Shown: piece after piece, positions 17,317 to 22,613 of the stretch
Numbering within the stretch: the stretch's first letter is position 1
How the letters are laid out: each line of letters starts with the position of its first letter
Made by a program: the position numbers and the translations under genes
Assembly (NCBI GenBank): GCA_963169675.1
Contig: CAUJFJ010000002.1
Location: forward strand, 1-34,402
Reading direction: 5' to 3'
Source: Bacteroidota bacterium
Lineage (GTDB): Bacteria; Bacteroidota; Bacteroidia; AKYH767-A; OLB10
DNA length: 34,402 nt
Notes under the pieces: model-generated
The model's database searches: none
What the model saw: the letters and a program-made list of their open reading frames with translations, nothing else
What the model was told of the DNA's origin: nothing

Positions 17317-17393
17317 CGGGGTGTAGCGCAGTCCGGTAGCGTATCAGCATGGGGTGCTGGTGGTCGCTGGTTCGAATCCAGTCACCCCGACCA
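17317..17393 (+). tRNA. tRNA-Pro (anticodon GGG)
   Basis: The 77-base cloverleaf folds completely: acceptor stem CGGGGTG/CACCCCG, D stem GCGC/GCGT, anticodon stem TCAGC/GCTGG with loop ATGGGGT and anticodon GGG at 17351-17353, and T stem CTGG/CCAG with loop TTCGAAT. The discriminator base is A and the CCA end is encoded (17391-17393). The first acceptor base C is typical of bacterial tRNA-Pro. It reads CCC and CCU codons. It stands alone with its own promoter and terminator and is followed by a tandem array that repeats its 3' end. Confidence 0.96.
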
Positions 17394-17395
17394 AA

Positions 17396-17527
17396 CAAAA
17401 AATTATTCAAAAAGTCCTGCTTTCGCAGGACTTTTTTTTGTTAGAAAAGCTTCAGTAGAAAGCTCGCTTTCGGATGAAGCTATTCTAACAAAAAACATCA
17501 CAAGGTGATGTTTTGAATAATTTTTTG
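17396..17527. repeat. Inverted duplication of the tRNA-Pro terminator flank
   Basis: CAAAAAATTATTCAAAA at 17396-17412 recurs as a perfect inverted copy at 17511-17527. GTTAGAAAAGCTTC at 17440-17453 recurs inverted at 17476-17489 with one mismatch. Between these matched flanks each arm has a different hairpin (17411-17432 and 17492-17514). The centre (17454-17475) holds a further small hairpin, GAAAGC/GCTTTC (17458-17471). The whole can fold as one long cruciform or stem. Confidence 0.8.
17409..17439 (+). terminator. Intrinsic terminator of tRNA-Pro
   Basis: AAAGTCCTGC and GCAGGACTTT form a 10-bp stem with a TTTC loop, followed by further T residues (eight T in all after the C). It begins 16 bases after the encoded CCA end. 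Confidence 0.9.
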
Positions 17528-17766
17528 GTTGAGTACCTCCCCCCTTCTGGATCATCCAGTCACCCCGCTTTCGGATGAAGCATTCCATAAAAAACCACAC
17601 AAAGTGTGGTTGTGTTGTTTTTTTTTGGTTGAGTACCTCCCCCTCCTGGATCATCCAGTCACCCCGCTTTCGGATGGAATAGAACTAACTAAAAACTGCA
17701 CGAAGTGAAGTTCAGAAGAATAATTTTGGTTGAGTACCACCCCACTCTGGATCATCCAGTCACCCC
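17466..17766. repeat. Three tandem ~100-base units repeating the tRNA-Pro 3' end
   Basis: Units lie at 17466-17566 (101 bases), 17567-17665 (99) and 17666-17766 (101), with a partial fourth start at 17767. Each has the same order: a GCTTTCGGATG box, a variable A-rich part with a hairpin whose core is CAC-NNN-GTG, a GGTTGAGTACC box with a following C-run, and CTGG-ATCAT-CCAG followed by TCACCCC. The last part reproduces the end of the tRNA T arm and acceptor stem; ATCCAGTCACCCCG is identical to tRNA positions 17376-17389. On the minus strand the three hairpins (around 17496-17510, 17593-17611 and 17694-17712) are followed by T-runs of five or six and look like intrinsic terminators. The stretch 17767-17925 holds a CCCC/GGGG hairpin (17763-17780) and a possible promoter, but no gene. 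Confidence 0.85.
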
Positions 17767-17879
17767 GCTTTCGCAAGGGGGACAAAATGGAAAAATTTTT
17801 AAGATGAGTCGTTAACCCCGAATAAGTCCATTTATTTTAGTTAAAATGATCAAATAATCATTGATTTTATTAACTTTGA

Positions 17880-17925: not shown

Positions 17926-19428
17926 ATGAAATTTAACCTTCTGATTATATTTTTAATACTTATTTTAAATACCTCGGTCAGATCACAAGATATCGTTTGG
18001 GAAAATACTATAGGTGGCAGTTCAGATGATTATTTAACTTCTATAGTAAAAGTACCCAGTGGGGGTTATTTAATTGGAGGCTATTCAAATTCAAATATTT
18101 CAGGTGACAAAAGCGAGAACTCACAAGGCCTATCGGATTTTTGGATAATTAGGCTGGATAACAATGGTGCAATTATTTGGCAAAATACAATTGGCGGAAA
18201 CGGCGATGATAAACTAAAGTCCATAATTGCAACAAATGATGGTTACCTTTTAGCAGGGAATACGGGTTCTGTAATTTCAGGTGACAAAACTGCCCCTAAT
18301 TTGGGAGGCATTGATTATTGGATTGTAAAAATTGATACTTCTGGCAATATCATATGGCAACAAACTTATGGGGGTTCAAACAATGAGAATCTAACCTCAA
18401 TTGTCCAATGTAATGACGGAGGATTTTTAATTGGGGGAGATTCTAAATCAGATAGTACAGGGATGAAAAATGAGGACTCAAAGGGTGGAGATGATTTTTG
18501 GATAGTAAAAATAGATTCTGTCGGAAATTATGAATGGCAAAATACAATGGGGGGAAATGAGAATGATAGGCTAATTTCTGTACAACATGACTTTAGTTCA
18601 GGTTATCTGCTTGCGGGAACAACTATATCAACTATATCTTCAGACATTTCTGTCGGCACCCTGGATGGATATTATGATTATTGGTTTGTTCAAGTGGATT
18701 CTTCAGGGAATATTATCTACGAAAAAACACTGAATGAACCATATGATCAATTAGCTTACAATGCATGTATTGGTTCCTCTAATAAAATATTGATATGTGG
18801 CGAATCATGGTTTAACGGTTGTTCTAATAACGATTTTCAAATTAAAAATTATGATTATATTACCCAGACACAAAACAACCTCATATTTGGAGCTAACGAC
18901 GAAGATTGGGCCATAGCAATTAATAAAACAAATGATGATGGATATTTAATTATCGGAAGAACTAATTCTGATATAGGTTGCAATAAAACCGAAGATTTAT
19001 TGGGCAACTTCGATTTCTGGATAATTAAACTAGACTCACTTTTTAATATTGTGTGGCAAAACACAATTGGAGGATCAAACAATGATATTCCGTCAAGTAT
19101 TGCTAACATTGGTATGCATAGTTATGTAATTGGTGGTTATACAGATTCAAATACTTCATCTGATAAAAGTGAAAACTGCCTGGGCGGTATGGATTTTTGG
19201 GTAATTGAAATTGTTGGAAAAGAAGATTACAATCATGTCACAGGTAAAGCTTTTATCGACCTAAATTCTGACAATAATCAAGACATCGGTGAAAATTCTA
19301 TTCCAAATCTTAAAATAATAGATTCTGTTTCTCAAAAATTCAGTTTCACGAATAATTTAGGTGATTTCGATTTAGATATTCCACCATCCGGACCTTTTCA
19401 AATAAATTCTATTCCGACATCCAATTAA
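17926..19428 (+). CDS. N-terminal part of the split T9SS cargo protein (seven-repeat propeller)
   Basis: The 500-residue product has a signal peptide (about 1-20, ending VRSQ) and seven repeats of about 57 residues that run from about 24 to 432. The repeat consensus is W-Q-N-T-I-G-G...GGYLIGG...SGDK...DFWIIKID-GNI. Repeat five is degenerate. Seven blades of this kind suggest a beta-propeller like those of other Bacteroidota surface proteins. Residues 437-500 begin an SdrD-B-like beta-sandwich (VTGKAFIDLNSDNNQDIGEN). It ends at the premature TAA. The sequence is visibly more AT-rich than the housekeeping genes on either side. The function is unknown; adhesion or surface binding is an inference. 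Confidence 0.75.
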   Translation: MKFNLLIIFLILILNTSVRSQDIVWENTIGGSSDDYLTSIVKVPSGGYLIGGYSNSNISGDKSENSQGLSDFWIIRLDNNGAIIWQNTIGGNGDDKLKSIIATNDGYLLAGNTGSVISGDKTAPNLGGIDYWIVKIDTSGNIIWQQTYGGSNNENLTSIVQCNDGGFLIGGDSKSDSTGMKNEDSKGGDDFWIVKIDSVGNYEWQNTMGGNENDRLISVQHDFSSGYLLAGTTISTISSDISVGTLDGYYDYWFVQVDSSGNIIYEKTLNEPYDQLAYNACIGSSNKILICGESWFNGCSNNDFQIKNYDYITQTQNNLIFGANDEDWAIAINKTNDDGYLIIGRTNSDIGCNKTEDLLGNFDFWIIKLDSLFNIVWQNTIGGSNNDIPSSIANIGMHSYVIGGYTDSNTSSDKSENCLGGMDFWVIEIVGKEDYNHVTGKAFIDLNSDNNQDIGENSIPNLKIIDSVSQKFSFTNNLGDFDLDIPPSGPFQINSIPTSN

Positions 19429-20589
19429 TTCATTCCGGTTCCACTCACACATTCTGGAATCTTTTACACAAGCAAAGAAATAGATTCATTGAATAATTTC
19501 AGTTTTCAACCAAACGGCGTTTATAATGATCTTTGTGTTGAATTAATTCCAAAAAGTGATATGAGATCCGGTCTTCATGCGTATTATGAAATTAATTTTG
19601 GCAATTATGGCACCACGGTTCAAAATGGAACCATAATATTTTATCCAGACAGCAATATCAGTTTTATATCAGCTGATATTTTACCACTCTCCATTTCTTC
19701 AGATTCCATAATTTTCGATATTTCAACCCTACAACCATATCAATTTGGCAAAATAAATATCGAAGCTAAAGTTGATTCAGGCCTCACAATTGGATCAATA
19801 GTTACATCAAATGTAACCATTTTACCAGTCTCAGGGGATGCTAACCCAATTTGCAACATCAATACTTCAATAGCATCCATAATTGGTTCATTTGACCCTA
19901 ATGATATTCTGGTAAATAGATCAACTTTGTTTGATTACGAATTATCTACCGAACCATATCTTGAATATTTAATAAGATTTCAAAACACAGGAAATGATAC
20001 TGCCTTTAATGTTAGAATTCTCGATCACTTTGAACAAACAAGTGTACAACCCCTTTCTTTTGAAATAATTAGTTCGTCACACCCGGTTGAATTTCGGTAT
20101 CTTGGATATGAAAATAACTTTGAATTTTTATTCAAGGACATTTTATTACCTGACTCATCAACCAACAATTCTTTCAGTAATGGATATATAAAATTTAAAA
20201 TCAAACCTGTTCAAAATCTATTTGTTGGAGATGTAATTTTAAACTTTGCCACAATTTATTTCGATTTTAATGAAGGTATCAAGACAAATCATGTCAGCAC
20301 ATTGATTGTTGCTCCAGTTGGAACTGAAGAATTTACTGAAAATGATTTAAATATTTTTCCAATTCCTGCAACAGATCAATTGTCCTTGGAACTAACAAAT
20401 ACAGAAACTGAAATGATATCTGTTGAAATTATTAACGTACTTGGAGAATATGTAAAAAAAATTGATTTAAATACAATTAAAGGAATAAACAAATTACTAA
20501 ATTTAGATATTTCTAAATTTCCTACAGGGGTATACATTGTTAAAGTATCAGGCCAGAAATGTTTTTCGAAGAAATTCATTAAGCAATGA
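19429..20589 (+). CDS. C-terminal part of the split T9SS cargo protein (sorting domain)
   Basis: This is the in-frame continuation after the stop codon; the first possible re-initiation codon is TTG at 19489, which would give 366 residues. It has no signal peptide, so on its own it could not reach the periplasm. It contains a beta-rich domain with the motif SIIGSFDPNDILV, found in many Bacteroidota surface proteins just before repeat-like FQNTGNDTAFNV segments. It ends in a type A Por_Secre_tail (about the last 80 residues, FPIPATDQLSLEL to KFIKQ). That tail is the signal for outer-membrane translocation by the type IX system. Confidence 0.65.
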   Translation, partial: FIPVPLTHSGIFYTSKEIDSLNNFSFQPNGVYNDLCVELIPKSDMRSGLHAYYEINFGNYGTTVQNGTIIFYPDSNISFISADILPLSISSDSIIFDISTLQPYQFGKINIEAKVDSGLTIGSIVTSNVTILPVSGDANPICNINTSIASIIGSFDPNDILVNRSTLFDYELSTEPYLEYLIRFQNTGNDTAFNVRILDHFEQTSVQPLSFEIISSSHPVEFRYLGYENNFEFLFKDILLPDSSTNNSFSNGYIKFKIKPVQNLFVGDVILNFATIYFDFNEGIKTNHVSTLIVAPVGTEEFTENDLNIFPIPATDQLSLELTNTETEMISVEIINVLGEYVKKIDLNTIKGINKLLNLDISKFPTGVYIVKVSGQKCFSKKFIKQ

Positions 20590-22326: not shown

Positions 22327-22613
22327 GTCAGTTGAAAATTCGTTGAAATGTAAAGTGTTCAATGCAAAATTCTAATGTAAAATGTTCGATGTAAAACGCA
22401 GAATGCAGAATTGAATGAGAATTTGTTTGTTAATGACCGGTAATCCTTAATCCTTAATTTTTAATCCTTAATTCTTTGGGTTGTCAGGATCAGAGATCCC
22501 TCCGGCTTTGCTTTTCGTCAGTTGAAAATTCGTTGAAATGTAAAATATTCAATATAAAATTCTAAATGTAAAATGTTCAATGTAAAACGTAGAATGCAGA
22601 ATTGAATGAGAAT
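22327..22613. repeat. Two direct repeats of about 96 bases
   Basis: Bases 22327-22422 and 22517-22613 are near-identical direct repeats that begin GTCAGTTGAAAATTCGTTG and end GAATGCAGAATTGAATGAG. Inside each, shorter imitations of AATGTAAAATGTTC recur. They are 190 bases apart and AT-rich, with no coding potential. Confidence 0.8.
22441..22475. repeat. Heptamer tandem repeat (TAATCCT)
   Basis: Five heptamers in a row: TAATCCT, TAATCCT, TAATTTT, TAATCCT, TAATTCT. This is a short degenerate microsatellite between the two larger direct repeats. Confidence 0.75.

Follow-up and report, generated by a model that had tools for sequence, protein, structure and literature searches.

A tandem array built on the end of tRNA-Pro(GGG)

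The window, by which is meant the whole stretch of 34,402 nucleotides analysed, contains an intact tRNA-Pro(GGG) gene behind which part of the same tRNA recurs, and the question raised by this locus is whether the repeats encode an RNA or record the activity of something that inserts at tRNA genes. The array begins immediately after the tRNA, on the same strand (Table 1). A first-pass annotation had described three tandem units of 101, 99 and 101 bases downstream of tRNA-Pro(GGG) and its terminator, and the same structure was recovered by TRF (17465-17773, 3.1 copies, period 101, 79% matches, score 337) and by phasing on CTTTCG, which was used to set the unit boundaries. Its reading of the unit ends as CTGG-N5-CCAG plus a tail from the tRNA body is likewise borne out, N5 being ATCAT. 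Every unit terminates in CTGGATCATCCAGTCACCCCG, the 3′ end of tRNA-Pro(GGG) with its T-loop swapped out, of which the last 14 bases are identical to the end of the tRNA body; CTGG-ATCAT-CCAG-TCACCCCG is present in all three units, as is ATCCAGTCACCCCG, identical to the tRNA end. Ahead of each copy stands a conserved stretch, TTGAGTACC(T/A)CCCC, and the array end looks like a fusion between the tRNA end and the 3′ half of its terminator hairpin. The tail match at this locus scores 14/15 and is above chance, because none of 2,250 null comparisons, in which the ends of other tRNAs were set against the same downstream regions in three genomes, reached 13/15. The array occupies a single locus in its own genome, with no further copies of the kind expected of a dispersed REP or MITE repeat.

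Table 1. Positions of the tRNA gene, repeat units and predicted secondary structures within the window
Feature	Position	Strand	Basis
tRNA-Pro(GGG), intact, parent of the repeated tail	17317..17393	+	ARAGORN; Rfam RF00005, 59.1 bits
Branched fold, outer stem 17392-17412 / 17511-17531 around T0, H1 (long) and H2 (short)	17392..17531	+	Inverted repeat I2; folds with z -7.9 and -10.5
T0, intrinsic terminator hairpin of the tRNA, loop CTTTCG	17409..17436	+	Terminator scan; inverted repeat I4
Hairpin H1, loop CTTTCGG	17434..17495	+	Inverted repeat I1, 87% complementary
Unit 1, 101 bp	17467..17567	+	TRF and phasing on CTTTCG
Hairpin H2, unit 1	17492..17514	+	Counterparts at 17593-17611 (perfect) and 17694-17712 (imperfect)
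Conserved linker TTGAGTACCTCCCC, unit 1	17529..17542 (counterparts 17629-17642, 17730-17743)	+	Alignment with G001, G004, G002 and G078
tRNA-Pro 3′-end copy 1, ATCAT in place of the T-loop	17547..17567	+	Sequence; repeat D3
Unit 2, 99 bp; 95/97 identity with sister-species unit 2	17568..17666	+	TRF and alignment
tRNA-Pro 3′-end copy 2	17646..17666	+	Sequence and repeat search
Unit 3, 101 bp; 98/100 identity with sister-species unit 1	17667..17767	+	TRF and alignment
tRNA-Pro 3′-end copy 3	17747..17767	+	Sequence and repeat search
Array end, CACCCCGCTTTCGCAAGGGGGAC	17761..17785	+	Sequence; compare terminator GTCCCGCTTTCGCGGGAC in G001

The tRNA-proximal half of the locus corresponds to a large branched fold in which an outer stem encloses three hairpins (z about -8 to -10.5). 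The strong tRNA terminator T0, which lies between the tRNA and the array, is one of these. Units 2 and 3 start in the H1 loop CTTTCGG and keep the 3′ half of the fold alone. Control regions 3′ of other tRNAs gave a median z of -2.5, with 5 of 58 at -6.6 or below, and because such regions too can reach strong values, fold strength by itself is weak evidence. The architecture is alike in the sister species, and branched folds whose stem sequences differ are found 3′ of tRNA-Pro(GGG) in five genomes, namely that of the window (G000), G001, G004, G002 and G078. This recurrence at tRNA-Pro may point to a role for the predicted fold, either in RNA form or as a DNA structure.

Occurrence and divergence of the array in related genomes

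A similar array beside tRNA-Pro in a related genome, for which the first-pass annotation had advised a search, does exist. In G001, the one genome of the same genus compared, the array is found at the same place, and flanks and array together are 91.8% identical over 1,980 nt. Window unit 3 matches G001 unit 1 and the second units match each other (identities in Table 1), so that the order is swapped, and window unit 1 has no G001 match above 88%. Since the proximal half pairs with the first unit in both genomes, alignment of these two members of the genus suggests that the proximal module was probably replaced whole in one lineage. The copies also differ in their T-loops, with ATCAT in all three window copies versus a small hairpin, ATCAACGCAGTTAAT, in two copies in G001, a difference suggestive of concerted change among copies of the array.

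Beyond the genus, single-unit forms similar to the array were identified 3′ of tRNA-Pro(GGG) in G004, G002 and G078, and in the latter two the copied T-stem follows the respective genome's own tRNA. With corrected spacing, the linker-plus-copy pattern occurred in 14 of 395 genomes of the class, G001 and G078 being genuine among those looked at individually. In an earlier class-wide scan for the linker, the matches inspected lay in apparent coding sequence, with the exception of G078, and an exact-pattern scan of genome contigs for the array unit gave no match.

Partial tRNA copies at other tRNA genes of the family

Across three genomes of the family, a 3′-end copy (at least 13/15) was found at 12 of 85 tRNAs and a 5′-end copy at 4 of 85, compared with 0 of 2,250 null comparisons for each end at 13/15 (0 of 4,500 together). 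In the window's genome, 3′ copies accompany tRNA-Ala (14/15) and tRNA-Pro, with a weaker one at tRNA-Val; 5′ copies accompany tRNA-Val and tRNA-Trp, with a weaker one at tRNA-Gly (12/15). A palindrome, TCCCGATAGCTATCGGGA, occurs three times in this genome, only in the 5′ copies of the Trp, Gly and Val genes.

Two of these loci can be described individually (L055, G000:C304, and L064, G000:C49, listed jointly for the two tRNAs). tRNA-Val(TAC) has a hairpin-bearing 5′-end copy on one side and the weaker 3′-end copy on the other, and the 3′-end copy at tRNA-Ala(GGC) carries CCCCGATAGCTATCGGGG in its T-loop.

Small GIY-YIG ORFs beside tRNA genes

Small ORFs encoding GIY-YIG endonucleases were found to be closely associated with tRNA genes in Bacteroidota. 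A tRNA lies within 800 nt in 47 of 53 loci (53 contigs) and within 120 nt in 41 of 53; since the profile was built on proteins known to neighbour tRNAs (a subset of more closely related sequences, the 12-sequence alignment being too diverse), the proportion of 47/53 describes this subfamily and not all GIY-YIG proteins. The tRNA and the linked ORF are always on the same strand, with a median gap of 46 nt, and the linked tRNAs cover 11 amino acids. Of 32 testable loci with the ORF on the 3′ side of the tRNA, 17 carry a duplicate of that tRNA's own 3′ end (at least 13/15) past the ORF, while the ends of other tRNAs scored this well in 3 of 1,334 control comparisons; of 12 loci with the ORF on the 5′ side, 5 have a 5′-end copy ahead of it, the control figure being 2 of 481. 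Perfect palindromic stems of 6 bp or more occur in 28 of 38 tRNA-end copies, compared with 9.5% of mononucleotide shuffles and 19 of 85 parent tRNAs, a count to which adjoining terminator hairpins can contribute, as they do in the window's case. A search of the openly licensed literature, with subscription journals outside its coverage, returned no description of tRNA-linked GIY-YIG elements in Bacteroidota.

Such elements occur at the very tRNA that is the parent of the array. In three genomes of the Bacteroidia (G035, G129 and G122), tRNA-Pro(GGG) is followed by a GIY-YIG ORF and then a tRNA-end copy, and in G007, of the window's own family, by a GIY-YIG ORF broken by an internal stop together with a tRNA tail. 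Within genus g31, syntenic tRNA-Pro(GGG) loci (flanks 73-83% identical) are found empty, filled and decayed: G093 is empty on the 3′ side, G129 has an intact GIY-YIG unit with a 3′ copy and a duplicated terminator, and in G049 the ORF is truncated and the copy bears a hairpin. Downstream of tRNA-Asp in G006, also of the window's family, two non-coding units of 202 bp (201/202 identical) accompany one 475-bp GIY-YIG unit and have the 3′ part of the latter in common with it, the last codons of the ORF included, so that tandem non-coding deletion derivatives of GIY-YIG elements do arise. Repeated insertion at a tRNA 3′ end, which the first-pass annotation had offered as its second option, thus draws support from related loci, both those of g31 and the tandem derivatives within the family.

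Three further loci deserve description. At a tRNA-Met gene of G001 (L171, G001:C49), two tandem copies of the 5′ half lie upstream and a GIY-YIG ORF downstream, followed by a near-complete tRNA-Met copy whose D region, variable region and T-loop contain hairpins. Upstream of a tRNA-Ser gene (L079, G018:C102), two GIY-YIG units, nearly identical and spaced about 600 bp from each other, each follow a copy of the tRNA-Ser 5′ end, which makes them a 5′-side version of the element. At another tRNA-Ser gene (L077, G005:C11), the hairpin insert of the tail copy has itself grown into a series of repeats, each about 40 bp long (caagaggcatagctctcgatggcgagccaagcttttgc).

Origin of the array

With the tRNA-linked GIY-YIG elements the array shares an intact adjacent tRNA on the same strand and copies of the tRNA end, here three. 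Nothing at 17390-17800 could be recognised as a GIY-YIG ORF or as a piece of one, and a GIY-YIG search of the window's genome gave no match on the window's contig; the sole small GIY-YIG gene found intact in that genome lies at the edge of a contig, where no tRNA can be seen. Lacking the ORF, the array is not a member of these elements as defined and is at most a possible derivative. We nevertheless consider it reasonably probable, from comparison of the loci, that the array arose from a tRNA-targeting element as a tandem series of non-coding units that have lost the GIY-YIG gene. The comparison suggests, in other words, the remains of small selfish elements adjacent to tRNAs and not a new regulatory RNA. 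Descent from a GIY-YIG element would be preferred here over descent from an independent non-coding element that targets the same site. The array's unit sequence is in none of the GIY-YIG-bearing elements seen, and the predicted branched fold appears more elaborate than decay would need, which counts against derivation.

The element at its origin would adjoin an intact tRNA and end in a second, hairpin-disrupted tRNA-end copy and a terminator. Its nuclease would cut the tRNA gene, and repair would copy both the element and a tRNA end into the site, such that the gene stays functional. The disrupted copy would no longer be a cut site, with hairpins or the changed trailer protecting against recutting. 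If the ORF was then lost, and the repeated tRNA tails and CTTTCG hairpin loops served as sites of recombination, tandem non-coding units could result.

The first-pass annotation had drawn a parallel to the E. coli tyrT locus, and the layout does resemble that of RtT RNA (RF00391), in that tandem units downstream of a tRNA each contain a copy of its 3′ end; the array, known from sequence alone, differs in that it is unrelated in sequence, follows another tRNA and has units of about 100 nt compared with 178 nt. The small-RNA part of the parallel fared less well. The RtT covariance model gave no match at E<=5, the array contains no promoter of the sigma-70 type, although this pattern is possibly not valid for Bacteroidota, and tRNA and array are separated by a strong terminator, so that an rtT-like reading is left without positive support. 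A structured small RNA in a broader sense, whether rtT-like or a tRNA-tail decoy with the branched fold as its functional form, would explain the strong non-random folding (z -7.9 to -10.5), the conserved linker and the recurrence of the architecture with different stems in five genomes. Such an RNA is still unlikely: the tRNA terminator lies inside the fold, units 2 and 3 retain just half of it, Rfam at a lax threshold gave, besides the tRNA, weak sub-gathering matches only and none for the array, and the linker-plus-copy pattern is confined to the few class genomes noted above, the inspected matches of the earlier scan being apparently coding apart from G078.

Local duplication by replication slippage, with no element behind it, would account for an array confined to a single locus and for repeat junctions at the CTTTCG loops, which offer microhomology. 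It would not account for the hairpin-bearing partial copies beside several other tRNAs of the same genome and its relatives, which exceed the null given above, or for the GIY-YIG genes that relatives have in the same position, and we regard it as distinctly unlikely. Tyrosine integrases usually leave tail duplications at tRNA 3′ ends, and the duplicated tails fit such a footprint, which would make the repeats attachment-site scars of lost islands. The units are merely 99-101 bp long, however, no integrase was seen among the larger ORFs of the window (by eye) or among the five neighbouring ORFs scanned with Pfam, and neither 5′-end copies nor hairpins within copies would be predicted, all of which makes integrase scars very improbable.

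A wider and decidedly tentative proposal can be made, namely that a widespread selfish family in Bacteroidota inserts at either end of many tRNA genes, rebuilds the tRNA and leaves hairpin-tagged partial copies that are perhaps immune to recutting, with branched non-coding forms such as the window array mobilised in trans by GIY-YIG enzymes. Should this be true, a large share of the small ORFs labelled "GIY-YIG nuclease family" in Bacteroidota would be selfish elements tied to tRNAs, and unusual repeats that follow tRNA genes would be their remains, which would explain tRNA-tail arrays without invoking small RNAs. It would also provide a testable model for homing endonucleases living by essential RNA genes on bacterial chromosomes.

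Comparison with known elements

Rickettsia palindromic elements are palindromes inserted in RNA genes. The copies described here resemble them in having palindromes in the loops of RNA genes, and differ in that the palindromes are in duplicate tRNA fragments beside an intact tRNA; the palindrome tested was found only there in this genome. A precedent exists in phage T6, where SegB, a free-standing homing endonuclease of the GIY-YIG type, brings about the tandem amplification of a segment of phage tRNA genes (PMC13096335). Common to the T4/T6 SegB system and the loci considered here are a GIY-YIG gene by a tRNA gene, tandem amplification of a segment with tRNA sequence and, as proposed for the present loci, recombination between short shared sequences (PMC13096335). 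SegB is a phage gene, however, and whole tRNA genes are amplified (PMC13096335), whereas here the setting is a bacterial chromosome, the tRNA copies are partial and hairpin-disrupted, and the window array is without a nuclease gene.

Other features of the window

Two adjacent ORFs on the same strand occupy 17926-20589 (17926-19428 and 19489-20589). The second contains DUF7619 and a C-terminal sorting domain, and the pair possibly represents a single gene for a secreted protein that a stop or frameshift has interrupted. Short tandem repeats with 14-bp and 7-bp units are present at 22347-22587, in the intergenic region between two ORFs.
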